A DNA stretch of 36,378 nucleotides, taken from the NCBI GenBank assembly GCA_018055905.1, contig JAGPGT010000004.1:11940-48317 (forward strand), given 5' to 3'. This document shows, one piece after another, positions 15,607 to 32,784 of this stretch. This DNA comes from Phycisphaerae bacterium (GTDB taxonomy: Bacteria > Planctomycetota > Phycisphaerae > Sedimentisphaerales > Anaerobacaceae). The number at the start of each line of letters is the position of its first letter. Position 1 is the stretch's first letter. Below the pieces are notes generated by a model. It saw nothing but the letters and a program-made list of their open reading frames with translations. It was not told where the DNA came from and ran no database searches. A program made the translations under genes and the position numbers.

Positions 15607-16368
15607 ATGCCGACCCGGGCAACAGCCGTGGTTCGATTCCGAATCGTCGGGCCGGTGGCGATGTTGTCGCATGCCGAGACGTTCCGGGTTCTCCAGCGGG
15701 CCTGCGCCCGCGCAGGCATTCCGGTGCGGTACAGCGAGGGATTCAATCCTCACCCCAAGTTGTCCCTTCCACTTCCCAGGCCGGTGGGGGTGGAATCGGA
15801 AGAGGAATTGCTGGTGGCCCGGCTCTACGAGGACCCGACGGTTCGACGGGGCGCAGCGCCGGCGGAGTGCGAAACGGCCATGATGCGGGCTTTGGACGAT
15901 CAACTGCCTGAGGGAATGGACGTGCTGTCGTTGACGCTGGTAGCCTCCAACGCGTCATTGACCCCGCAATCGGCTCAGTACGTTCTGCCTTTGCGCGGGG
16001 GGGCCGATCCGGGGCTTGCGGACCGTCTTGGTTGCCAGATCGAGCGGGTGATGGCCAGGGAATCATGCGTGATGGAAAGAACGGTCGACCGGGACAAACC
16101 GGCCAGGAAGATCGACGTGCGTCCGTTTCTCTTGTCGATCCGGTTCGAGGACGGTCGTCTGATCGTCCGGCATCGTACCGGCGACGCCGGGTCGATCCGG
16201 CTCGACGAGATCCTGAGGCTCTTTTCGTTACGGGCCGAGGATTTGGCTGGACCGGTACAAAGGTGCAATGTCGTATGGGAGACAACCAATTTGCAGCAGA
16301 CAACACAAAAACCCCATGGGGAAAGTGGGGCAGAGGACATAGAAGATGGCTCGAGAAATGCTGATTAA
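15607..16368 (+). CDS. DUF2344 (TIGR03936-type) radical-SAM-associated protein, stand-alone
   Basis: 253 residues. The start of the DUF2344/TIGR03936 domain is clear: VRFRIVGPVAMLSHAET, RACARAGIPVRYSEGFNPHP and KLSLPLPRPVGVESEEE. In many bacteria this domain is fused to or encoded directly after a TIGR03960-type radical SAM protein and next to an RNase E/G gene. Here the RNase gene is present, overlapping this stop by 23 nt in another frame, but no radical SAM gene precedes it; Enzyme I does. ATG 15607 has GGAG 8 nt upstream. The molecular function is not established; links to RNA or ribosome processing are inferred from neighbourhood only. Confidence 0.85.
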   Translation: MPTRATAVVRFRIVGPVAMLSHAETFRVLQRACARAGIPVRYSEGFNPHPKLSLPLPRPVGVESEEELLVARLYEDPTVRRGAAPAECETAMMRALDDQLPEGMDVLSLTLVASNASLTPQSAQYVLPLRGGADPGLADRLGCQIERVMARESCVMERTVDRDKPARKIDVRPFLLSIRFEDGRLIVRHRTGDAGSIRLDEILRLFSLRAEDLAGPVQRCNVVWETTNLQQTTQKPHGESGAEDIEDGSRNAD

Positions 16369-17872
16369 CGTCGCCGAGCGCGAGGAGTGCCGCGTGGCGG
16401 TCGTCGAAGACAACCGGCTGGAGGAGCTCTATGTGGAGCGGGCCAGCGCCGGCACTCACGTCGGGAGCATCTACAAGGGGAGGGTCGTCAACATCGAGTC
16501 GGGGATTCAGGCCGCATTCATCGACATCGGGATCGAGAAAAACGGCTTTCTTCACATCAGCGATCTGCATCCGCGCTACTTTCCGGGCGGCAAGAAAGAC
16601 GTGCTGGAAGTCATCGGACGTCGCCAGGCGCTGAAAGAACGTCCCCCCATCCAGAATTGCCTGCGGCGGGGGCAGGAGATCGTGGTGCAAGTGACCAAGG
16701 AAGGGCTCAAGACCAAAGGGCCGACGCTGAGCACCTACCTGGCCTTGGCGGGCAAACACCTGGTCATGATGCCCTGGATGAAGAACTACGGGATCTCGCA
16801 CAAGATCGAGGACGAAGAGGAGCGAAAGCGTTTGGCGGGCGTGTTCGACGAGTGCAAGGCGCCCAAGGGCCACGGGTTCATCATCCGTACCGCCGGCGAG
16901 GGAGCGTCCAAGAAGGACATCCAGGCGGACCTCAAATATCTCGACCGCCTCTGGCGGGCGATCGAGGCCAGGATGGAGAGCGAGAAGGCGCCGGGCGAGA
17001 TCTATCTGGAGTCGGATCTCGTGATCCGGGCTCTGCGGGACACGTTCGGCCCGGAAATCTCCAGGATTGTCTGTGATTCGGAGGTCATGGTCCGCAAGAT
17101 CAAGGAGTTCTTGTCGATCTCCGCGCCGCGCCTGAAGCCCAAGATCGTCACGTACGAAGAGAAGATTCCGCTGTTCCACAAGTACGGGATCGAGGACGAG
17201 ATCGCCAAGATTCAGTCCCGCGAGGTGGAGCTCAAGAGCGGCGGCTCCATCGTCATCGAGCAGACGGAGGCCCTGGTCGCCATCGACGTCAACAGCGGAC
17301 GGTTCCGCAAACAGAAGAACGCCGAGCAGACCGCGTTTGAAAACAACATGGAGGCGGCCACCGAGATCGCCCGGCAATTGAGGCTTCGGGACCTGGGAGG
17401 CCTGATCGTGTGCGACTTTATCGACATGCGGAACGCCAAGCACCGCAAAGAGGTCGAGAAAGCGTTTCGCGATGCGGTCAAGGCGGATCGGGCCCGGTCC
17501 AAAATCCTGCATATCAGCCGTTTCGGGGTCGTCGAGATGACCCGCCAGCGGATGCGTCCGTCCCTGCAGTTCAGCACCTTCCTGGCCTGCCCTCACTGTG
17601 CGGGTATGGGTTTCGTCAAGAGTCACGAGTCGCTGGCGCTGGAGATCATCCGCCTGCTGAACCTGGCCGTGTCGAAGGAGCACATCCGTCGGATCGAGCT
17701 GACGGTTCCGAAAGAAGTGGGGGAGTTCCTTCAGAACGAAAAAAGAGCCGCCATCGCCCAGATTGAGCAGGCGACCGAAAAACGAATCATCATTCATTCT
17801 TCTCCCGATTACGTCGGCGAACAGCGGACGCTGTTGTGTCTCAACGACCGCGGCGGAGAAGTCAAGCTGTAA
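16346..17872 (+). CDS. rng: Ribonuclease E/G family endoribonuclease (RNase G-like)
   Basis: 508 residues, the RNase G size; the long C-terminal degradosome scaffold of RNase E is missing. It cuts single-stranded RNA, preferring 5'-monophosphate ends, in mRNA decay and rRNA processing. An S1 domain sits near residues 40-115 (GSIYKGRVVNIESGIQAAFI). The catalytic metal site is Asp314 (AIDVNSGRF) and Asp357 (CDFIDM), with the same 43-residue spacing as Asp303 and Asp346 of E. coli RNase E. The zinc-link CPHC (Cys415, Cys418) joins protomers. It follows DUF2344 with a 23-nt overlap and is followed after 21 nt by kdsD. The name rng is chosen on length and could equally be a short rne. Confidence 0.93.
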   Translation: MAREMLINVAEREECRVAVVEDNRLEELYVERASAGTHVGSIYKGRVVNIESGIQAAFIDIGIEKNGFLHISDLHPRYFPGGKKDVLEVIGRRQALKERPPIQNCLRRGQEIVVQVTKEGLKTKGPTLSTYLALAGKHLVMMPWMKNYGISHKIEDEEERKRLAGVFDECKAPKGHGFIIRTAGEGASKKDIQADLKYLDRLWRAIEARMESEKAPGEIYLESDLVIRALRDTFGPEISRIVCDSEVMVRKIKEFLSISAPRLKPKIVTYEEKIPLFHKYGIEDEIAKIQSREVELKSGGSIVIEQTEALVAIDVNSGRFRKQKNAEQTAFENNMEAATEIARQLRLRDLGGLIVCDFIDMRNAKHRKEVEKAFRDAVKADRARSKILHISRFGVVEMTRQRMRPSLQFSTFLACPHCAGMGFVKSHESLALEIIRLLNLAVSKEHIRRIELTVPKEVGEFLQNEKRAAIAQIEQATEKRIIIHSSPDYVGEQRTLLCLNDRGGEVKL

Positions 17873-17893: not shown

Positions 17894-18871
17894 GTGGAAT
17901 TCGATCTTGATTACGCCCGGCGGGTCATTCTCGCCGAGGCCGATGCGATTGCGTCGATGACGCCGATTGTCAACGGCCGGTTCGTCCGGGCCGCGGAAAT
18001 GCTCTATACTTGCACCGGTTCGTGCATCGTCAGCGGGATCGGCAAGGCCGGTCTGATCGGTCGTAAGATCAGCGCGACGCTGGCTTCGACCGGAACGCCG
18101 AGCCATTTTCTCCATCCCGCGGAGGCGGTGCATGGGGATCTCGGCCGTCTCCGACGCCAGGACGTCGTAATGATCCTCAGCTACGGCGGCGAGACCGACG
18201 AAATCATCCGCTTGATCAACCTCGTCAAACAACTCGGCATCCCTTTGATTGCGCTCACCGGAGACGAGGATTCGACCCTCGGCCGGCACAGCGACGTCGT
18301 GCTGTGCATGGGGAAGGTGAACGAGGCCTGCCCGCTGGGGGTGGCGCCGAGCGTGTCGACCACCTGCATGCTGACCATCGGCGACGCGCTGGCCTTCACG
18401 GTGATGAAGGCCCGCAACTTCAGCGTCGAGGACTACGTTCGTTTTCATCCGGGCGGGTCGCTCGGCGCCAAGTTGATGACGGTGGAACAGTCCATGATGT
18501 TCCGTCCGGGCGAGAAACTGCCGATCGTGAGCGTGAACGAAACGATCCGCGGGATGTTGGAGAAAACCAAGGACGTGAAGCGCCACGGGGCCGTGATGGT
18601 CGTCGATTCTTCGGGCCGCTTGGCCGGTATCCTTACCGACGCGGACTTGCGCCGGCTCCTGACCAAAGAGGGAGCGGCGGCTTTGGACCTGAAGGTGGGT
18701 GAAGTCATGACGGCCGGCTGCAAACGGATCCGCGCCGACGCTCTGGCTGCGGAGGCCACCGCTCTCTTCCACAAGTATCGAATCGACGAGTTGCCCGTCG
18801 TGGACGCCGACGACCGGCCGGTCGGTCTGATCGACGTGCAGGACATCGTCATGATCAAGGTGGTCGGATAA
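17894..18871 (+). CDS. kdsD: D-arabinose 5-phosphate isomerase (SIS + two CBS domains)
   Basis: 325 residues from GTG 17894, with AGGGAGG 9 nt upstream. KdsD converts ribulose 5-phosphate to arabinose 5-phosphate, the first step to Kdo for lipopolysaccharide. The SIS domain (about 1-195) shows SGIGKAGLIGRKISATLAST, FLHPAEAVHGDLGRL and SYGGETDEI, plus the catalytic-region His185 in RFHPGGSLGAKL. Two CBS domains follow (about 205-325), containing GAVMVVDSSGRLAGILTDAD and ELPVVDADDRPVGLIDVQD. Length and layout equal E. coli KdsD. kdsC follows after 138 nt, consistent with Kdo synthesis. Confidence 0.94.
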   Translation: MEFDLDYARRVILAEADAIASMTPIVNGRFVRAAEMLYTCTGSCIVSGIGKAGLIGRKISATLASTGTPSHFLHPAEAVHGDLGRLRRQDVVMILSYGGETDEIIRLINLVKQLGIPLIALTGDEDSTLGRHSDVVLCMGKVNEACPLGVAPSVSTTCMLTIGDALAFTVMKARNFSVEDYVRFHPGGSLGAKLMTVEQSMMFRPGEKLPIVSVNETIRGMLEKTKDVKRHGAVMVVDSSGRLAGILTDADLRRLLTKEGAAALDLKVGEVMTAGCKRIRADALAAEATALFHKYRIDELPVVDADDRPVGLIDVQDIVMIKVVG

Positions 18872-19009: not shown

Positions 19010-19537
19010 ATGGATACTAAGGGCAAGCCCAATTTGAAAGCCATCGAACTGTTGGTGCTCGACGTGGACGGCGTGCTTACCGACGGCCGCGTGTTCATTC
19101 ACAGCGACGGGACCGAGAGCAAGGGCTTCTCCATTCTCGACGGGCATGGTATCCGCATGTGGCAGCGGGCCGGGTTGCACGTGGCATTACTCAGCGGTCG
19201 GGCCTCCGAGGCGACCGCCCGTCGGGCTGAGGAACTGGAGATCGCGCACGTGATCCAGGGGGCCAAGTCCAAGCTACCCGTGCTCAAAGAACTGTTGGAG
19301 AAGCTGAGTCTGTCGCCCGCGCAGGCGGCCTATATCGGCGACGACGTGATGGATCTGCCGATCGTTCGCTATGTCGGGTTCGGCGTGGCCGTGGCCAATG
19401 CGGTGGACGAACTGAAGAAACACGCGGATTACGTGACCGCCCGAAAGGGTGGGGACGGCGCCGTCCGCGAGGTGATCGAGTACATTCTCAAGGGCTCCGA
19501 CCGTTGGGCGAGTTTGATGGAGCGGTATCTCCTGTAA
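19010..19537 (+). CDS. kdsC: 3-deoxy-D-manno-octulosonate 8-phosphate phosphatase (HAD family)
   Basis: 175 residues, the typical KdsC size. It removes phosphate from Kdo 8-phosphate, giving free Kdo for LPS. HAD motifs are in order: DVDGVLTDG (Asp18, Asp20), LLSGR with Ser62, Lys88 in the KSKLPVL helix, and GDDVMDLP (Asp111, Asp112). The cap is minimal, as in tetrameric C0-type KdsC, and FSILDGHGIRMWQRAGL matches the family's FxxxDGxGI segment. The C-terminal RKGGDGAVREVIEYIL tail is also diagnostic. The 138-nt gap after kdsD contains no gene and no convincing promoter. Confidence 0.94.
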   Translation: MDTKGKPNLKAIELLVLDVDGVLTDGRVFIHSDGTESKGFSILDGHGIRMWQRAGLHVALLSGRASEATARRAEELEIAHVIQGAKSKLPVLKELLEKLSLSPAQAAYIGDDVMDLPIVRYVGFGVAVANAVDELKKHADYVTARKGGDGAVREVIEYILKGSDRWASLMERYLL

Positions 19538-19561: not shown

Positions 19562-21751
19562 ATGGGTCTGAACCTTCGAAAAATCGTGATCGGCGGGATC
19601 GCACTGGGCGTGCTGGGCGCGGCCTTTGCCCTTTACCTGCGGTACAACCAGACGCCGCCGATCGTCGCCAACGAGGTCCGCCCGACGCCCACGCCTGTCG
19701 CGGAGATCGACGACCCCGATTCAAAACCCCCCAGCGGCCAAATCAGCGGCGTCAAGGTCGGACCGGTCCGCGAGACGGAGTTCGTGCACCGTAACGAACA
19801 GTTTCAAATCGACAGGAAGTTCGGATTCGAGCAGCTTCTCCACAAACAGGGCAGCCAGTGGGAAATCACCAAGCCGTACATGTGGATCTATCTGGAGCGG
19901 TTTGTCTGTCGCGTTACGGCCGATCGCGGCGTGGCCGAGCTGGTCGAAGCGTTCGGGCGGCTCATGCCCAACAACGCCACGTTCGTCGGAAACGTGGTGA
20001 TCCACGTCCTTCCGACCGATCCCAACGATTCTTGGGAGTGTTTCATTCGCCTCGACGATGTGGGTTTTCTCGCGGACAAGTCGATGTTCTCCTCCACAGG
20101 GTCCGTCCGGTTTCTCTCCCGCGCCATACGTCTGACCGGTACCGGCATGGAGCTGATTTACGACGCCGGTCGCAGCCGGCTCGATCTGTTCCGCGTTTTC
20201 GACCTCGACAACCTCCGAATCCGCAGCAGCGAGGTCAAGGCCATGGCCCCCAGAAAGAAGGGGGATTCGTCGGTGGGAGACAAGGAGGATTCCCTGGCAG
20301 CAACCCGCGGCGCTGAAACGGCCGACACTACGGTGAAGAGGTCCGCCTCGTCCGTCCCCATCGCTGCGGCGCCCGACGTGTACCAGTGTGTCTTTCGCAG
20401 AAACGTCCGGTTGAACAGCCCCGACGGCGTCGCGATTGCCCGAGACGTGCTGTCCATCAACGGCATTCAATGGGCCCGGCCCGGCGATCGTGAGCCGAAG
20501 TCCCCGACGGAGACGGATCTGGATCCGGCCCACGAGCGGTCGTTGCCGGAACCGAGGGCTCTGAACACCGCCGCCTCGTCATACCCGGCCATGAGCGCCA
20601 TTCCCGACGAACTCTACGACATCGTGGTCACCTGCGACGGCGGCGCCGACATCACCCTGGTCGGCGGTTCGCCCAATCTGGCGAACGCCTCGGTCATCCG
20701 TACCCCCCCCAACGCGCCGGCCGGACCGCCTTCCGAGGAGATGGATTCCTTCGACCGCCAGCAGGTCGTCGCGCAGCGGATCGATTTCGATTTCCCGACC
20801 ACCGACACGACGATGCTGGGCCCGGTGGCGATGAAGTTCCTGGTGGCCTCCGATCCCAACAGCTCGCGCGCCAGACTTGGGGAAAAGCCCATGCCCATGA
20901 CGGTCACGGCGCGAAGTGCGGTCCGCTATCTCGCGGCGGCCAAACGAATCGTCCTGGAAGGCGGCTCCACCGCCACCATCCAGCGGACCGAGCCCAACTT
21001 CGTCGACGAATACCGCCTCGCGGCCCCTCGCCTGACGCTGGATCTGATCGTCGATTCCAATGCGCCCGACAACGTCAAGGTTGATCTCCGCCGATTCGTC
21101 GCCGACGGCGGGCTGGGAACGGTGGATGCGGCGCCTGTGGCGGTTCGGATGTGGCGCCGCGCCGCCGGCAAGCTCCTCGGTCGCGTGACTTTGGACGCTC
21201 ACGATCTGCGGTATGATGCAAGAGCGGCCGAACTGGCTGCCTCCGGTCCCGGTGTCATCTGGGTCCACAACGCCGCGACGGTCCGGTCGAAGGACGATCC
21301 CAATGAGGCCTTCAAACCGTTTTACGCCCGCTTGAGCAACTTCGACAAGCTGACGTATTGGACCCAGTCCAGGCGGATTGTCGCAGAGGACGATTCGCAG
21401 CAACTCGAACTGCGCTACTTCCCCCAGGTAAACGGCGAATGGGGGCCCCAGACGCAGGTGGTCGCCGGACACGTCGAGGCGACGTTGCGTCAGACCGACC
21501 CGAACCGCATGGAACTGGAGTCGTTCGTGGCGTCCCAAGGCATTGAGTACGACAGCGAGATCGATCATTTGAATTTCATCGGTTCCGAGCTGGTCTACGA
21601 CCAGGGGCGGTCCCGCCTGCGGATCACAGGCGACGAGCTGCGTCCGTGTTATCTGAACGGTGCCTTGGTCGACGCAATTGTCGTGGACCTCAGGACCCGC
21701 AACGTCGAGACGCAGATCGCCGGGCCCAGCATCTTTCAGGTCCGACCGTAA
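19562..21751 (+). CDS. Large LptC/LptA-like (OstA-fold) LPS transport protein
   Basis: 729 residues. A single N-terminal membrane helix (about 8-25) is followed by a periplasmic region rich in beta strands. LptC of E. coli has about 190 residues and LptA about 185, so this is roughly four times LptC. Strands of OstA-type appearance recur: ELIYDAGRSRL at 197, a VRYLAAAKRIVLEGG strand near 455, HDLRYDARAAELAASG near 545 and ELVYDQGRSRL at 676. The position directly after kdsD-kdsC matches lptC in proteobacteria. I infer that it anchors in the inner membrane and forms part or all of the periplasmic LPS bridge. The ATP-binding LptB is not in the window. The family call rests on context and strand pattern. 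Confidence 0.62.
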   Translation: MGLNLRKIVIGGIALGVLGAAFALYLRYNQTPPIVANEVRPTPTPVAEIDDPDSKPPSGQISGVKVGPVRETEFVHRNEQFQIDRKFGFEQLLHKQGSQWEITKPYMWIYLERFVCRVTADRGVAELVEAFGRLMPNNATFVGNVVIHVLPTDPNDSWECFIRLDDVGFLADKSMFSSTGSVRFLSRAIRLTGTGMELIYDAGRSRLDLFRVFDLDNLRIRSSEVKAMAPRKKGDSSVGDKEDSLAATRGAETADTTVKRSASSVPIAAAPDVYQCVFRRNVRLNSPDGVAIARDVLSINGIQWARPGDREPKSPTETDLDPAHERSLPEPRALNTAASSYPAMSAIPDELYDIVVTCDGGADITLVGGSPNLANASVIRTPPNAPAGPPSEEMDSFDRQQVVAQRIDFDFPTTDTTMLGPVAMKFLVASDPNSSRARLGEKPMPMTVTARSAVRYLAAAKRIVLEGGSTATIQRTEPNFVDEYRLAAPRLTLDLIVDSNAPDNVKVDLRRFVADGGLGTVDAAPVAVRMWRRAAGKLLGRVTLDAHDLRYDARAAELAASGPGVIWVHNAATVRSKDDPNEAFKPFYARLSNFDKLTYWTQSRRIVAEDDSQQLELRYFPQVNGEWGPQTQVVAGHVEATLRQTDPNRMELESFVASQGIEYDSEIDHLNFIGSELVYDQGRSRLRITGDELRPCYLNGALVDAIVVDLRTRNVETQIAGPSIFQVRP

Positions 21752-21857: not shown

Positions 21858-23819
21858 ATGGATCAGCGAAGTACGTTGGGTTGGGCGGTGCTGTTGGCGA
21901 TGGTTTCAGGAGCTTCGGGGAACGCATTCGGTCAGAGCAGAGAGATCCGGCCGGGGGAGAACTTGGTGGTCCAAGGCCTGCCTCCCCTCCCGGTCACGCT
22001 GGCGGACGAAGTCCGACGGTACACGGAATCTCGCTCGGCATCCTTTGCGGACTGGCATCCGACCGAGCGGTCGATCCTGATCTCCACACGATTTGCCAGT
22101 ACCGCTCAGATTCATCGTGTCCAACAGCCCGGCGGGGCGAGAACGCAATTGACATTCTTCGACGAGCCGATCAGCGGAGCCACGTACGAGCCTCGCACCG
22201 GGCGGTACTTCCTATTCACCAAGGACGTCGGCGGCAACGAGTTCGGTCAGATCTATCGTTACGACCTGGCGGATGGAAAAATCACGCTGCTGACCGACGG
22301 AGGCCGCTCCCAGAACGGCGGCATCGAGTGGAGCACTCGAGGCGACCGGATCGCTTACGGCTCGACTCGCCGCAACGGCGCCGACCGCGACCTCTACGTG
22401 ATGGATCCGCTCGACCCGAAGACCGACCGGCTCGTCCTGCAAGTCCGCGGTGGCGGCTGGTCCGTCCTCGACTGGTCGCCCGACGACCGAGGACTGCTGA
22501 TCGGCGAATACATCTCCGTCAACGAGAGCCGCCTTTGGCTCCTGGATCTCCAGACAGGCGAGAAATCTCTGCTCATAGAGCCCGGCTCGGAACCGGTTTC
22601 TTATCGCAACGCCCAGTTCAGCAAGGAGGGGACGGGACTCTATCTGACGACGGACAAGGACTCCGAGTTCCAGCGGCTTTCGCACATGGACCTGGCGACC
22701 CAACGGATTACCGTCCTGGTGGACTCGATCCCCTGGGATGTCGAGGGCCTGGACCTGTCGCCGGACGGTCGGCGGATCGCGTTCGGCGTGAACGAAGCCG
22801 GCATCTCGCGGCTGTATCTGTTCGATCTCGCCGATCGCAGGCTGCAACGCGTGGACGCGGTCCCGACCGGCATAACCGGCGGCCTCAAGTGGCATCTCAA
22901 GGGGCGGCATCTGGCCTTCACGATCTCCTCGGCCCGCTCGCCTTCGGATGTCTACTCGCTCGATACCGAGACGGGCGAGGTCTCCCGCTGGACGGAGAGC
23001 GAACTCGGCGGGCTCGTCGCCTCCGAGTTGTCGGAGCCGAAGCTCGTGAGCTGGCCTAGCTTTGACGGCCGCGAGATCACCGGGTTTCTCTATGAGCCCC
23101 CGGCCCGTTTCACCGGAAAACGCCCTGTGATGATCGTCATTCACGGCGGTCCGGAGGGTCAGTCCCGACCGGGCTTCCTCGGACGCAGCAACTACTTCCT
23201 GAACGAGCACGGCGTCGCCTTGCTCCTGCCCAACGTTCGCGGCTCAACCGGTTACGGAAAGAGCTTCGTCAAACTCGACAACGGATTGAAGCGGGAGGAT
23301 TCGGTCAAAGACATCGGCGCTCTGTTCGACTGGATCGCGAAGCAGCCGAATCTGGATGCCTCGCGGATCTTGGTCATGGGCGGCAGCTACGGCGGCTACA
23401 TGACCCTGGCCGTCGCGACCCATTACAGCGACCGCATCTGCTGTGCGATCGACATCGTGGGGATCTCGAACTTCAATACGTTCCTCAAGAACACCGAGAG
23501 CTACCGCCGGGACCTGCGCCGGGCCGAATATGGAGACGAACGCGATCCCGCGATGCGGGAGTTCTTCGAGCGGATCGCGCCGCTGAACAACGCCGCCAAG
23601 ATCACCAAGCCCCTGTTCGTCGTGCAGGGCGGAAACGATCCTCGCGTCCCGCTGTCGGAGGCCGAGCAGATGGTCGAGCGGGTCCGGGAGCACGGCACAC
23701 CCGTCTGGTATCTCATGGCCAAGGACGAAGGCCACGGCTTCCGCAAGAAGGAAAACGCCGACTTCCAGTTCTACGCGACGATCCTGTTCGCGCGGCATCA
23801 CCTGCTGGGCGGATCGTGA
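21858..23819 (+). CDS. S9 family prolyl-oligopeptidase-type serine peptidase, secreted
   Basis: 653 residues with a signal peptide (about 1-25, cleavage near AFG-Q). The N-terminal half is a beta-propeller with PD40/WD40-like repeats (ADWHPTERSILIST, EWSTRGDRIAYGS, DWSPDDRGLLIGE, LDLSPDGRRIAFG). The C-terminal alpha/beta hydrolase domain holds the triad: Ser510 in GGSYGGYM, Asp594 in GGNDPRVP, His626 in DEGHGF. The layout is that of acylaminoacyl-peptidase/DPP-like S9C enzymes that cleave short peptides reaching the tunnel. AGGATGAG precedes ATG 21858. The stop overlaps a GTG that opens a GNAT remnant. Confidence 0.93.
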   Translation: MDQRSTLGWAVLLAMVSGASGNAFGQSREIRPGENLVVQGLPPLPVTLADEVRRYTESRSASFADWHPTERSILISTRFASTAQIHRVQQPGGARTQLTFFDEPISGATYEPRTGRYFLFTKDVGGNEFGQIYRYDLADGKITLLTDGGRSQNGGIEWSTRGDRIAYGSTRRNGADRDLYVMDPLDPKTDRLVLQVRGGGWSVLDWSPDDRGLLIGEYISVNESRLWLLDLQTGEKSLLIEPGSEPVSYRNAQFSKEGTGLYLTTDKDSEFQRLSHMDLATQRITVLVDSIPWDVEGLDLSPDGRRIAFGVNEAGISRLYLFDLADRRLQRVDAVPTGITGGLKWHLKGRHLAFTISSARSPSDVYSLDTETGEVSRWTESELGGLVASELSEPKLVSWPSFDGREITGFLYEPPARFTGKRPVMIVIHGGPEGQSRPGFLGRSNYFLNEHGVALLLPNVRGSTGYGKSFVKLDNGLKREDSVKDIGALFDWIAKQPNLDASRILVMGGSYGGYMTLAVATHYSDRICCAIDIVGISNFNTFLKNTESYRRDLRRAEYGDERDPAMREFFERIAPLNNAAKITKPLFVVQGGNDPRVPLSEAEQMVERVREHGTPVWYLMAKDEGHGFRKKENADFQFYATILFARHHLLGGS

Positions 23820-25268: not shown

Positions 25269-28200
25269 CTACTTCACCGGATAGGGCGGCAAAGGGGGAA
25301 TCTCCTTTTCCTTGGTCTTGAGTTCTTCGAGGATGACCTCAATGGCCTTATTGAGTTGCTGATCGATGCCGGCGTATTCTTGAGCGGGATCGTTGTCTAC
25401 GACGATGTCCGGTTCGACCCCTTCGCCTTCGATGATCCAGCGTTTGCCTTCGACGTCGTAACGCGAGAACTCGGGCTTGTTCAGCGAACCGCCGTCCAGC
25501 AGAGGCAGGGAGCCGCGGATGCCGATCACGCCGCCCCAGGTGCGTTTGCCGATCACCTTGCCCAGCTTGTAGTGCTTGAACTGGTATGTGAACAGGTCGC
25601 CGTCGGAGGCGGAGAACTCGTCCGCCAGGCAGACCATCGGGCCGTAGATCATCGCCTCCGGTTCCGGGGTCGGCGCTGTGTTGCGGGCGAATTCGATCAT
25701 CGCGATCTCGCGGCGCAGCCGCTCGATCAGCATGGGCGAGACGTTGCCGCCGCCGTTGCCGCGAACGTCGATGATCAGGGCCTTCTTGCGGATCTGCGGA
25801 TAGAAGTGCTTGACGAACTCGTTCAGGCCGGTCGTGCCCATGTCCGGCACATGGACATAGCCTACTTTGCCGTCGGTGGCCTTGGTTACCTTCTCGATGT
25901 TGCCCTGGACCCACCGATAGTAGTAGAGATTCCCCTCGTTGTCGATGGGCACGACGGTGGTTTCGTGGCTGCCTTCGAGTTCCGGCTTTGAATTGACCTT
26001 CAGGGTGACCTGCCGGCCCGCCTTGTTGACGAGCAATTCATAAAAATTCTTCACGTCGGCGGTCGAGTGCCCGTCGACGGCCAGAAGGAAGTCGCCTTCT
26101 TTGACGTCCACGCCGATCTCCGTCAGAGGCGAACGGGTGGCCTTGGCCCAGTTCTCGCCCCGCAGGATCTTGACGATTTGATAGTAGCCGCTCTGCGCGT
26201 CGCGGGTCAGTTCGGCGCCGAGCAGACCCATCGGAATTCGCTTGGGCTGGGGGGATTCCCCTCCGCCGACGTAGGCGTGTCCCGCGTTCAACTCGCTGAT
26301 CATCTCGCCGATGACGTAGGTCAGGTCGGCGCGGTGATTCACGAAGGCCACCAGTGGCTCGTAGCGGGCCCGCAGGGCCGGCCAGTCCACGCCATGCAGG
26401 TTCGGGACGTGGAAGAAGTCCCGCATCTGTCGCCAACATTCGTTGAAGATCTGCCTCCATTCGGCCCGTTTGTCGAGTTGAACTTCCATCGTCGACAAAT
26501 CCAGCGTCTCCTTCATCTCGAATTTGCCTTTGGGCAGATCGAGAATCGCATACTGGTCGCCGACCGAGACGAGCATCTTCTTGCGGTCGGCGGAGATCTC
26601 GTAGCCACGGGCTTGGCCCAGCTCGGTTTCCTTTTGTTCCTTGAGGTTGTACAGGCACAACTGCCCGTGGCGCAGGTAGTAGATCAGATCGTCGACGGAA
26701 CTGAGATGACGATAGGACGACACCGCGATCGGCAGCGCCGCGATGCGGTCCTGGATACCGTCGAGATCGACCTGGATCGGCCCGGGTTCGGACTTTTCCT
26801 TTGTCTGGTGGTTCTTGGGCTTGTCCGTCTGGTCTTGGGAGGCGGCCTCGGTCTCCGCTTCCTTCTTTTGCGACTCCTGGGTCTCGACCTCGTCGCTCTT
26901 GGGCTCAAAGGGCGAAGGAGTCGATTTCGCCAGTGCGATCAAGTAGATCCGGGACATGTCCTGATAGGCGTGGTTCCATTCGGTGCTGCTGTAAATGGGG
27001 TGGAAATCCCGCTGCGAGACGAAGAACACGAACTTCCCGTCCGAACTGAAGATCGGATCGGACGAGCTGTACCAGCCGTCGGTCAGCTCATGCGAGGTCT
27101 GGTCCTGGAGGGAGTAAAGGTAGATCTTGCTCATACTGTTCAATTCGGGCTTGGCGTAGACGATCCACCGGCTATCGGGCGACCAAGCATAATCGCTGAA
27201 CTCCCATTTGTCCGCCTTGCAGACCTCGGTGATCTTGCCGGTCTCGACGTTGACGAATCGCAGGCGCAGGGCTTTGTCCGCCCAGAGGATTTTCTTGCTG
27301 TCGGGCGACCACACGAGGTCATACAGATAGACGGCGTTGTCCTTGGTCACCTGTCGGGCGGCGCCCCGTCCGTCCTGCGGGACCACCCAGATCTCGTCTT
27401 CGCCCGATGCGTCGGAGACGTAGGCGATCCACCTTCCGTCGGGGGACCATTTGGAATTCCGTTCGTGCACGCCGGGCGTGGCGGTCAGATTGCGGATCGC
27501 CCCGTGCTTGGCCGGCACGGTGAAGACGTCGCCTCGAGCGCCGAAGAGGCCCCGTTTTCCGTCGGGCGAGATCTCGTAGTTGCTCACCTTGTTGGCGACG
27601 TTGACCAACCCACCCCGGCCTCCCTGGAGATCGTCCTCGATGAAAATGTTCACTTTCACGGCTTGTTCGGTCTGCAGGTCGTAGCGGTAGAGGTAGCCTC
27701 CGTTCTCAAAGACGATCGCCTTGGGACCCAGCGACGGGAACTTCACGTCGAACTCGGTGAACGCCGTCAGTTGGCGGGTCTCTTTCGAACGGATGTCGTA
27801 GACGAATAGGTTCATCCGTTTGTTCTCATCGCGGTCCGAGAGGAAGAAAATCCTGTCCCCGCTCCACATCGGGATGATGTCCTGGGCAGGATTGTTTGTG
27901 AGGTTCTCGGTGGTTTTGGCCTCGAAATCGTAGATCCAGATGTCGTCGGCCATCCCGCCGCGATAGCGCTTCCAGGTACGGAACTCGCGAAAGACGCGGT
28001 TGTAGGCCAGCTTCTTGCCGTCCGGGGAATAGGAGCAAAAACCCCCTCGCGGCAGGGGCAGTTCGTCGGGGATCTCGCCCGAGAGCCCGACGGAGTACAA
28101 CCGACCCAGGAAGTCATTGAAGGAACGCATCCGCGAACGAAAGAGGATCCGTTTGCCGTCCGGCGTCCACGTCATCACGATGTTGTTGGGACCCATGCGG

Positions 28201-28544
28201 TCGCCCACGTCGTCCCGCCCGAGCGTGGCTGTGAAGGTAAGCCGCTGGGGCACGCCGCCGGCGGCGGGCATCAGGTAGACCTCGGTGTTGCCGTCATACT
28301 GGCCGGTGAAGGCCAGCGTTTTGCCGTCCGGCGAGAACCGGGCGAACATCTCGAACCCGTCGTCGTTGGTCAGTTTGCGGGCGGTGCCGCCGGAGGAGGC
28401 GACGGTGTACAGATCGCCCGCGTAGGTGAAGACGATCTGGTCTTCGTGGATTGCAGGAAACCGCAGCAATCGGGCCTCGGTCGCCGCCAAGGCAGGGTGG
28501 ACACCGACAAGGAGGGCCGCACAGAGCGAAAACACGAGCTTCAT
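25269..28544 (-). CDS. Tricorn-like S41 protease with beta-propellers and PDZ domain, secreted
   Basis: 1091 residues with a signal peptide (about 1-20, cleavage near ALA-A) and GAGGA 7 nt before ATG. Residues about 25-680 form two beta-propellers with many SPDGK repeats (ARFSPDGKTLAFTG, TWTPDGKRILFRS, KWSPDGRWIAYVS, WSPDSKKILWAD). An acidic, Gln-rich insert (about 550-590, SDEVETQESQKKEAETEA) interrupts the second propeller. A core domain, a PDZ domain (about 800-890) and the tail-specific protease domain follow. His756 (NAGHAYVGGG) and the EFSASDGD motif (probable nucleophile Ser980), then RTWGGVIGI, are Tricorn-type. It should cut proteins or large peptides in the periplasm or outside. The convergent 87-nt gap to the islet shows only an imperfect hairpin. 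Confidence 0.9.
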   Translation of the reverse strand: MKLVFSLCAALLVGVHPALAATEARLLRFPAIHEDQIVFTYAGDLYTVASSGGTARKLTNDDGFEMFARFSPDGKTLAFTGQYDGNTEVYLMPAAGGVPQRLTFTATLGRDDVGDRMGPNNIVMTWTPDGKRILFRSRMRSFNDFLGRLYSVGLSGEIPDELPLPRGGFCSYSPDGKKLAYNRVFREFRTWKRYRGGMADDIWIYDFEAKTTENLTNNPAQDIIPMWSGDRIFFLSDRDENKRMNLFVYDIRSKETRQLTAFTEFDVKFPSLGPKAIVFENGGYLYRYDLQTEQAVKVNIFIEDDLQGGRGGLVNVANKVSNYEISPDGKRGLFGARGDVFTVPAKHGAIRNLTATPGVHERNSKWSPDGRWIAYVSDASGEDEIWVVPQDGRGAARQVTKDNAVYLYDLVWSPDSKKILWADKALRLRFVNVETGKITEVCKADKWEFSDYAWSPDSRWIVYAKPELNSMSKIYLYSLQDQTSHELTDGWYSSSDPIFSSDGKFVFFVSQRDFHPIYSSTEWNHAYQDMSRIYLIALAKSTPSPFEPKSDEVETQESQKKEAETEAASQDQTDKPKNHQTKEKSEPGPIQVDLDGIQDRIAALPIAVSSYRHLSSVDDLIYYLRHGQLCLYNLKEQKETELGQARGYEISADRKKMLVSVGDQYAILDLPKGKFEMKETLDLSTMEVQLDKRAEWRQIFNECWRQMRDFFHVPNLHGVDWPALRARYEPLVAFVNHRADLTYVIGEMISELNAGHAYVGGGESPQPKRIPMGLLGAELTRDAQSGYYQIVKILRGENWAKATRSPLTEIGVDVKEGDFLLAVDGHSTADVKNFYELLVNKAGRQVTLKVNSKPELEGSHETTVVPIDNEGNLYYYRWVQGNIEKVTKATDGKVGYVHVPDMGTTGLNEFVKHFYPQIRKKALIIDVRGNGGGNVSPMLIERLRREIAMIEFARNTAPTPEPEAMIYGPMVCLADEFSASDGDLFTYQFKHYKLGKVIGKRTWGGVIGIRGSLPLLDGGSLNKPEFSRYDVEGKRWIIEGEGVEPDIVVDNDPAQEYAGIDQQLNKAIEVILEELKTKEKEIPPLPPYPVK

Positions 28545-30041: not shown

Positions 30042-32633
30042 TTATTTCGATCTCCAATCGCATTCGTGGGGCGGAGGCGGGCGATAGTCGCGGGCGATTC
30101 GATAATAGTATCGCACGGGTCTTTGGCGTACGGACACGGTCCGCTCTTCGATCCCGTCCAGTCTGGCCCAGCGGGGGATGTTCTGGCGTTCCAGGTTCGT
30201 GCGGTCCAGGCTGATCAGCAGGAGTGTCCAGCCGGCGTACCGGCGGGGCGGGAACCAGAATCCATACATCAATCCGCTGCCGCCGAAGAGATGTCGGCTC
30301 GATGTCAGTTCGACGCTCCCTTGCGTATGACGACGGTAGAACGCCAGTTCGCTGGCCAAGGCGTATTTGTCCATGCCGACGACCAGGGGGCGGACGCCCA
30401 GATCGGTTCGCAGTTGTTCTTCCAGCCGCTGCACATCGCGTCCAATCTCTTCCCACGCGATCGGCCAATTCCAATCTTGAACGACCGGGACGCCGGGAAG
30501 GCCGAGAGAAGCACAGTGCAGGAATCCCCCGAACACCAGAACGCACGCCACCAACGTCGGAGGCCAGAGCTGCCGGCTCAAGGCGTCCAGTGATGGTCGC
30601 ACCGCACAGGGGGGCGTCACGATCTGCCTGGCCAGGACCGGTAGCGCCGCCAGCCACAGAGGGCCCGTCCAGTTCATTCTCCCCTCTCGCGAAAGACTAA
30701 AGAGAACGAACACCGACAGCGGGACTATCGTGAAGACCGTCGTGAACAGACGTTTCGAGGAGAACACGGTTCGAAACGCATCCAGAAGGCCCAGCGGAGT
30801 GATCAGCAGGGCTATGGCCGCGACGAGCAAAGGAAGCCCGAACCGGCTCTGCCCGTCGAGGCGGTGGACACTTTGAAAGAGGAACGACGCCCATTCGTTC
30901 CGCAGGTTCCACGCGATCACAGGGCTCAGCAGCAGGCCCGCCAGAACCCCGGCCAGATAGGGTTGCGGACGACGAAGCCACCGTCGGCTGGGTCGGTCCA
31001 ACAGGATAAAGACCCCAGTCGCCGGGACCAGCAGGGCGATCGTGTATTTCGAGAGCATCCCCAAGCCGATGCAAATCCCGGCCCCCCACCAGGCCCTTGC
31101 CCGTCCAGCGGAGAGGGCGCGTTCCAGGAAGAACAAAGCCCCCGCCCAGCAGGCGGTCAGCGGGGCATCGGGTGTCATGAAGAACCCGAACAGGAAGAAG
31201 AAGGGCAGCACCGCGGTTAACATCGCGGCCGTCAGCGCGGTTCCTTTGCCATAGAGATTGCCGGTCAGGGCCAAGCAGAACCCCGCGGTGACGAACCAGC
31301 ACAGGAAGGCCCCGACGCGGACGCCCAGCTCCGTGTCGCCGACCAGGGCTGTTCCCGCAGCGATCAGCCAGGCCACCATCGGCGGATGGTCCAGATACCC
31401 CAGGGCCGGATGTTGGGCGTAGTTCCAATAATAGGCCTCCTCGGGCAACAGGTCCGGCAAGCCCAGATACGTCAGCCTCAGAAGAACCGAATAGCCGATC
31501 AGTCCGAGGGCCGCCAGACGCCAGGACAGCCCGTCGGAGCGGCCGTCCTCCCGTCGGAACACGAAGAACGCGCAGCCCAGATAAGTGACGATCGCGCCGG
31601 CCGACGCCGCGATCGACAACGCCACCAGTTCGGACCCACCGGCTCGTTCCGTCAACAAAGCCAGCACGCCGCCGCGCAGGAACAAAGCCATCAGGCAGGT
31701 TGTGACAAACCGCACCGGCTTCGTCCGGCCGGAAGGCCTGTGGTCCGACGGCGCGAACACCCAGTGAACGCACATCCCGTAGGTGAGCATCGCCACGATC
31801 GCAAAGCTGAGGATGTGGGACAGGCTCAAATCCAGGCCCCGGTCCCGCAGAATCGTGAACCCTCCCACGTCCACGACTAGGCCCGCCAGCCCCACCAGGG
31901 CGAATCGCCCCGCAGTGACTGGGGTCGCCGCGCCGCCGACCAGTGCGACGGTCCGACGAAGGTAGCAGGCCGCCTGTCGCAAGCTCATCTTGGACTGCCC
32001 GTGGAAGCGGTCGCCGAAGCAGATGGGGATCTCGCTGACGCGCAGGTCGCCTGGATGGCGAAGCAGGATCTCCAGGGCGATCTTGAATCCCTCCGCATCG
32101 TCGGCCACGCCCAGCAGCCTGTCGCGACGGATTGCGAAGAAGCCCGAGGTCGGGTCGTGCACGTCCGTCAGCGGCCAGACGACCGCGCCTGCGATGCGGG
32201 ACATCGCCCGCCGGGTCCAGGACCAGTGGGGAATTCGTCCCCCCTGGACATACCGGCTGCCGATGACCATGTCCTGAAGTCCCTCGAGCACCGGTCGCAC
32301 CAATTCGGGCGCCTGCTCGGGACTATGGCTCAGGTCGCCATCCATCACGAGGATTGTGTCGGCCCTCGCCCGGCCGGCGGCGGCCAGGACGTCTCCGGTC
32401 AATCCTCGGCCGCTTTGGGCCTTCACCAGCGTGACCGACGCCTTCGATTCCCACCGGCGGATTCTCTCTTGTGTGCCGTCGGTGGAGCCGCCGTCGGCGA
32501 ACAGGACCTCAATGGACAGATTCGCCCGGTCAAAGGCCGCAAACAGGCCGGTCAGCAGACAATCTACATTCTGCGCTTCGTCCAGTGTCGGCACGATGAC
32601 GGAGATATCAGGGGGTTTTCCCCGCTTATCCAT
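30042..32633 (-). CDS. GT2-GtrA-GT39 three-domain glycosyltransferase fusion
   Basis: 863 residues from ATG 32633; the frame continues 14 codons upstream but the family begins near DISVIVPTLDEAQNVD. Residues 1-235 are a GT2 domain like dolichyl/polyprenyl-phosphate mannose synthase, with ADGGSTDGT and the metal-binding DGD at 98-100. Residues about 243-362 are a GtrA-type four-helix membrane domain (FALVGLAGLVVDVGGFTILR to CAFFVFRR). Residues about 380 to the end are a multi-helix PMT/ArnT-like GT39/GT83 domain with EEAYYWNYAQHPALGYLDHP in its first loop. One chain would thus make a polyprenyl-phosphate sugar, help it cross the inner membrane, and use it outside on protein or lipid. This order of roles follows from the families; the sugar and acceptor are unknown. 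Confidence 0.88.
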   Translation of the reverse strand: MDKRGKPPDISVIVPTLDEAQNVDCLLTGLFAAFDRANLSIEVLFADGGSTDGTQERIRRWESKASVTLVKAQSGRGLTGDVLAAAGRARADTILVMDGDLSHSPEQAPELVRPVLEGLQDMVIGSRYVQGGRIPHWSWTRRAMSRIAGAVVWPLTDVHDPTSGFFAIRRDRLLGVADDAEGFKIALEILLRHPGDLRVSEIPICFGDRFHGQSKMSLRQAACYLRRTVALVGGAATPVTAGRFALVGLAGLVVDVGGFTILRDRGLDLSLSHILSFAIVAMLTYGMCVHWVFAPSDHRPSGRTKPVRFVTTCLMALFLRGGVLALLTERAGGSELVALSIAASAGAIVTYLGCAFFVFRREDGRSDGLSWRLAALGLIGYSVLLRLTYLGLPDLLPEEAYYWNYAQHPALGYLDHPPMVAWLIAAGTALVGDTELGVRVGAFLCWFVTAGFCLALTGNLYGKGTALTAAMLTAVLPFFFLFGFFMTPDAPLTACWAGALFFLERALSAGRARAWWGAGICIGLGMLSKYTIALLVPATGVFILLDRPSRRWLRRPQPYLAGVLAGLLLSPVIAWNLRNEWASFLFQSVHRLDGQSRFGLPLLVAAIALLITPLGLLDAFRTVFSSKRLFTTVFTIVPLSVFVLFSLSREGRMNWTGPLWLAALPVLARQIVTPPCAVRPSLDALSRQLWPPTLVACVLVFGGFLHCASLGLPGVPVVQDWNWPIAWEEIGRDVQRLEEQLRTDLGVRPLVVGMDKYALASELAFYRRHTQGSVELTSSRHLFGGSGLMYGFWFPPRRYAGWTLLLISLDRTNLERQNIPRWARLDGIEERTVSVRQRPVRYYYRIARDYRPPPPHECDWRSK

Positions 32634-32784
32634 AGGGACCCAGTCCTTCGGCAACCACCCGGCTCGCCCCCCCAAGGAGGCGGGTCGTACAAGAGCTTAT
32701 CGAGGGCGACCGGGGTCGGCAAGAGGCGGGATCGCCCCGGTGATCGCGACGCCGCGATGTTGTCTTTCGCAGGAAGATCCCCTC

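Follow-up and report, generated by a model that had tools for sequence, protein, structure and literature searches.

The long gene occupies the lptC position

The window, the whole 36,378-nucleotide stretch of DNA analysed here, encodes on its forward strand a protein of 729 residues (P0001; 19562-21751, +, ATG start). The GC content of this reading frame by codon position (0.64/0.46/0.80), together with homologs in 57 of 61 related genomes at E<=0.01, marks it as a real gene. Its closest named records belong to metagenome-assembled genomes labelled Planctomycetota or Phycisphaerales, with identities of 71, 63 and 56%.

Upstream on the same strand lie genes for RNase E/G (16346-17872, +), for the D-arabinose 5-phosphate isomerase of the Kdo pathway (kdsD/kpsF; 17894-18871, +; TIGR00393, E 1.6e-85), which is a conserved upstream neighbour, and for Kdo-8-phosphate phosphatase (kdsC; 19010-19537, +; TIGR01670, E 4e-51), with both KdsD and KdsC exceeding their NCBIfam subfamily cut-offs. 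Only 24 nt separate the end of kdsC from the long gene, and kdsC is directly upstream in 29 of 30 loci, the thirtieth (L026) ending at the gene itself. The E. coli K-12 order is kdsD-kdsC-lptC-lptA-lptB, which the window matches as kdsD and kdsC followed by the 729-residue gene. This bears out the proposal of an earlier, sequence-only reading that the gene sits where lptC is expected, as well as its description of the product as about four times as long, E. coli LptC having 191 residues. In contrast to the E. coli operon, neither lptA nor lptB follows the long gene; lptB is located on another contig, and the next gene in the window encodes an S9 peptidase (21858-23819).

A second peptidase gene is found near the first (25269-28544, -), its product combining the beta-propeller, PDZ and S41 domains of a Tricorn-type protease, and a further open reading frame (ORF; 30042-32675, -) joins glycosyltransferase family 2, GtrA-like membrane and PMT-like mannosyltransferase domains. 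A scan for promoters and terminators between the genes revealed no signal exceeding that of shuffles.

An LptC-like domain precedes LptA-like repeats

The protein begins with a membrane anchor helix (residues 3-28; 19568-19645, +) that coincides with the hydropathy maximum at residues 8-26 and is helical over residues 3-28 in the AlphaFold2 model. It is the only hydrophobic helix of the chain (residues ~5-27), in agreement with the single N-terminal anchor assigned previously. The domain that follows (residues ~65-228; 19754-20245, +) was classified through its relatives, as no Pfam or NCBIfam model matched P0001 itself at E<=1. In an alignment of 26 homologs of the long protein (A1), the LptC models PF06835 and TIGR04409 matched 11 and 12 members, respectively (best E 3.8e-8 and 4.4e-8), and in 16 of the 61 genomes PF06835 was above its cut-off, the match covering the N-terminal domain that the long gene encodes. 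By way of these homologs, the first domain appears to be homologous to LptC. The LptA models PF03968 and TIGR03002 each matched two of the 26 (best E 5.7e-4 and 5e-6), and PF03968 was above its cut-off inside the long gene of two genomes (G041, E 3e-5; G057, E 1.3e-4). The A1 profile retrieved no Lpt chain from the PDB sequences, its only match being a chance one to a Ran-binding protein (E 0.39).

Residues 268-397 (20363-20752, +) combine conserved strands with variable Pro/Ser-rich insertions and, judging from the homolog alignment and from the colinear alignment with LptC-LptA proteins described below, probably form a first LptA-like unit. The next two units are related to each other: LptA-like repeat 1 (residues 398-530; 20753-21151, +) aligns with LptA-like repeat 2, which extends to the C-terminal end (residues 536-729; 21167-21748, +) and adopts a beta fold in the AlphaFold2 model. 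Comparison of segment profiles with hhalign matched residues ~395-559 to ~537-687 with an E-value of 2.8e-8 and a probability of 95%. Alignment of the N-terminal domain to the repeats was weak and not significant (best E 0.018), which counts against a one-chain bridge. According to the homolog alignment, long Pro/Ser-rich insertions lie at residues ~226-270, 305-345 and 370-395; they could break a continuous groove and count against such a bridge as well.

The sequence-only reading had drawn attention to two near-identical motifs, YDAGRSRL at 200 and YDQGRSRL at 679. Both are present, and a pair of this similarity arises in 11 of 2000 shuffles, but in the alignment of 26 homologs the two 8-mers agree at about 2 positions on average, often at the Tyr alone. 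The recurring turn is therefore real while its near-identity is not conserved and is mostly a coincidence of this lineage; as weak evidence, the pair was rejected in support of the repeats.

Units in the family were counted with a profile built on the two repeats together (A4), its 24 rows coming from 12 of the 26 homologs; this profile also detected repeat 1 as one of two copies in the window's genome. Over 59 ORFs it found one copy in 14, two in 36, three in five and four in two, with five and six copies in single ORFs of 1070 and 1187 residues, respectively. These counts are lower bounds, because fragments and diverged members are among the ORFs with a single copy. Consistent with a variable number of units, the extra length of three family members in the alignment (L024, L028 and L029) consists of additional repeats. 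The earlier suggestion of a fixed-length bridge can thus hold only within a species, as the repeats detected vary from one to six between species, so that members of the family differ in length. Two genomes carry two copies of the long gene each (G014:C324/C574 and G028:C7/C44), one of ~700 residues and one of 1070-1187 residues with 5-6 repeats, although contamination of the assemblies is possible.

The C-terminal unit is modelled with an LptA-like fold

The AlphaFold2 model of the full chain, built on an alignment of four sequences only, reached a pLDDT of 30.5 and was not used. For the last 194 residues, one of five models was confident (pLDDT 72.2, pTM 0.70; the other four 35.8-40.9), and this model is all beta. 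Foldseek returned LptC and LptH as its best matches (E 6e-4 to 1e-3). In VIA-align the top score was shared by the LptD N-terminal domain (LptD-N; 9rps; Z 14.7, rmsd 2.7, 134 aligned) and LptA (2r1a; Z 14.7, rmsd 2.2, 126 aligned), followed by LptH (4uu4; Z 13.5) and LptC (Z 12.0). The first 26 rows are all LptA, LptD, LptC or LptH (Z 8.1-14.7), and the next row drops to Z 6.5. The last unit is thus modelled with an LptA/LptD-N-like beta fold. Of the continuous jellyroll that had been anticipated along the whole chain, the C-terminal 194 residues show the OstA/LptA-like part; the remainder was not seen because the full-length model failed.

LptC and LptA domains share single chains across the phylum

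The wider relatives of the window family were sought in 292 Planctomycetota genomes with PF06835 and PF03968 at E<=1e-3. PF06835 identified 61 LptC ORFs in 60 of the genomes, of which 55 have at least 500 residues and four fewer than 350; among these four, one is standard-sized (178 residues) and the 303-residue frame of G087 continues beyond the end of its contig. PF03968 (LptA/LptD_N) marks 61 of the 292 genomes and occurs in the same frame in 38 of the 61 LptC ORFs, at least twice in 28 and three times in 12. Two of these proteins (L206 and L207) exceed the NCBIfam equivalog cut-off for LptC and also that for LptA, which matches them in three stretches, and two others (L191 and L194) exceed that for LptC and fall just below that for LptA. 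The Pfam cut-offs for both domains are exceeded in six of ten scanned proteins (L191, L192, L194, L198, L206 and L207). By these curated models, single chains in the phylum hold LptC together with up to three LptA domains. A phmmer search of the PDB with L206 gave no match at E<=1.

The position of these genes is largely shared, as kdsC is upstream in 15 of 18 phylum loci; one locus (L208) has kdsD alone, and L192 and L198 have neither gene. The latter two (G106:C1 and G065:C166) are long LptC-LptA ORFs of ~1110 residues without kdsC or kdsD nearby, indicating that the fusion is independent of that gene position. The A1 profile recognises only 21 of the 292 genomes at E<=1e-5, showing how far the window family has diverged. 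Nevertheless, when the window-family profile was aligned to that of four phylum LptC-LptA proteins, the two were colinear from residues 97-717 to 95-646 (score 60.2, E 2.1e-6), in contrast to a score of 23.9 for the reversed control and of 21.6 (E 0.18) for the best of 30 block-shuffled controls.

The remaining Lpt machine and the search for a separate LptA

The window's genome (G000; 86% complete, 352 contigs) encodes LptB above cut-off (G000:C74), adjacent LptF/LptG genes with a run of N inside (G000:C100) and a 982-residue candidate LptD (G000:C214) that matches PF04453 (E 0.0012) and PF03968 (E 0.039), both below cut-off. These matches make the 982-residue protein a probable LptD; it had no match in the PDB by phmmer at E<=1. 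Among the 61 relatives, LptB is found in 52 and LptF/G in 59. One LptF/LptG paralog has ~530-580 residues instead of ~370 (L107:1841-3496, -; G000:C100, L081:1141-3321), with PF03739 matching in two pieces and extra OstA-like strands between them, suggesting that the periplasmic domain of the permease may be extended too.

A search for separate lptA or lptC genes, proposed with the sequence-only reading as a check, found none in the window's genome with PF06835, PF03968, PF13100, the family repeat profile or the second LptC-like family described below. This absence is weak evidence because PF06835 misses P0001, PF03968 barely sees LptD and the genome is 86% complete. Neither in this genome nor in G005 was an lptA seen beside lptB, which is followed by fmt in both; the opposite flank in G005 carries a gene that looks by eye like yidC. 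Counting against the absence of a separate LptA, PF03968 ORFs of LptA size (169-225 residues) occur in four phylum genomes (G159, G114, G129 and G069). Short PF03968 or PF06835 matches in relatives were rejected as chance, the proteins reading by eye as RNase H, GAPDH, DNA polymerase, FHA and aspartokinase.

Another LptC-like protein is found in 12 of the 61 relatives, mostly of ~235-350 residues and of 584 residues in G008, and likewise counts against the one-chain reading. The patchy family it represents (A3; clear in 12 of 61 relatives, with examples at L092:629-1534, L093:662-1465, L131:5276-6082 and L130:4718-5578) combines a membrane helix with an LptC domain, and its genes sit immediately next to one whose large product appears to be secreted. 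We rejected it as the 'real' LptC, as it was not found in the window's genome and occurs in only one of eight congeners.

A proposed one-chain bridge and its alternatives

We propose, with a probability of roughly 0.7, that the 729-residue protein is the inner-membrane-anchored periplasmic bridge of the Planctomycetota Lpt machine, in which LptC and several LptA units have been fused. By homology, LptB2FG would extract lipopolysaccharide (LPS). Residues ~1-228, with the N-terminal helix and the LptC-like domain, would dock on LptF/G. About three tandem LptA-like units (residues ~268-729), whose LptA fold is supported by a model for the last unit only, could then extend a hydrophobic groove across the periplasm. 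The free C-terminal unit, which resembles both LptA and LptD-N, may dock on the N-terminal domain of LptD, so that a separate oligomerising LptA would be superfluous and the length of the bridge would depend on how many units the gene encodes, which differs between species. The idea that one polypeptide could replace LptC plus several LptA is supported in its architecture by sequence comparison and modelling, most strongly because phylum relatives, mostly in the same position, carry LptC and one to three LptA domains in one ORF; its function, with LPS as cargo, a continuous groove and the replacement of a separate LptA, is inferred.

The long protein might instead be an extended LptC whose bridge is completed by a diverged, separate LptA that escaped detection, the extension adding length or another contact. 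We consider this unlikely, even though PF03968 is of low sensitivity, with probable LptDs often scoring only E ~0.01, and one genome (G159) holds both a 522-residue LptC ORF and a 225-residue LptD_N ORF. The family's own repeat profile argues otherwise, as in the 61 genomes it finds only the long gene, apart from three rows elsewhere, none of them significant (E 0.12-0.86). Similarly, in the genomes of the 38 fused ORFs the other PF03968 ORFs have 757-974 residues, the size of LptD, bar one of 267 residues in G320, seemingly the latter half of the same fused gene after a break.

Considerably less probable is that the protein bridges the periplasm for a different amphiphile in the manner of Lpt, or that it belongs to a paralogous side machine. 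Across the phylum the gene is linked to kdsD and kdsC of the Kdo pathway, and it co-occurs with LptB2FG and a probable LptD; both observations speak against this reading, although in several relatives the second LptC-like family adjoins the gene for a large secreted protein, so that LptC domains do serve other contexts in these genomes. A beta-rich surface or structural protein with strands that merely happen to resemble the OstA pattern, as the missing direct family match for P0001 and the low confidence of its full-length model would allow, is the least credible alternative and already disfavoured: curated LptC and LptA models match its homologs, its gene position is conserved, the structural matches (Z 14.7) stand far above unrelated rows, and the profile alignment far exceeds shuffles.

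If the one-chain bridge is correct, Planctomycetota may move LPS along one polypeptide without an LptA oligomer, the number of units serving as a genetic ruler of reach in each lineage and perhaps tracking envelope width. We advance this broader proposal only tentatively, at a little under even odds. Detectable LptA-like units number one or two in most of the window's order and up to six in the 1187-residue ORF. A one-chain bridge fixes the number of LptA units by sequence, which makes stoichiometry, reach and groove continuity directly measurable, and its repeats can be added or removed.

Comparison with known systems

E. coli assembles its LPS bridge from LptC and LptA as individual proteins, the copy number of LptA being unknown according to the accessible part of PMC10094684, and LptC, one LptA and the end domains span ~16 nm of a 21-nm periplasm in the portion available of PMC5575297. 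By analogy with these distances, about three LptA-like units would be ample for one chain to reach across. Like LptC (PF06835, TIGR04409; E. coli YrbK), the window protein is encoded after kdsC, has one N-terminal membrane helix and, as seen in its homologs, an LptC-like first domain; it differs in having 729 residues with internal repeats instead of a single domain of 191, with LptA-like units following in the chain. It resembles LptA/LptH (PF03968, TIGR03002) in its modelled C-terminal fold and in repeats of approximately LptA size, but is neither separate nor soluble, its tandem units being anchored through the LptC part, and P0001 lacks a sequence-model match.

The Planctomycetota LptC-LptA ORFs L191, L194, L206 and L207 agree with it in position, colinear profile alignment and size class (635-807 residues). 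Their domains still match curated models, whereas the window family has diverged and acquired long linkers. We found no name in print for ORFs of this type, and no report of a natural one-chain LptC-LptA in the open-licence PMC literature. Gene surveys describe the Planctomycetes Lpt set as 'largely reduced' in the part of PMC8871954 available, a look that may arise from LptA lying inside the long LptC; LptD was present in all Planctomycetes examined, as stated in the available text of PMC3422733. Diderm Firmicutes have two OstA proteins of ~200 residues, going by the accessible section of PMC5007114. All domains were already known, while their one-chain arrangement is apparently new and spread over much of one phylum. 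A parallel is offered by the long MlaD of Veillonella, which, as far as the accessible text of PMC10665443 goes, has an unrelated MCE fold, handles phospholipids and ends in a C-terminal barrel, but is likewise proposed to cross the periplasm as one inner-membrane chain in place of the separate parts found in E. coli.
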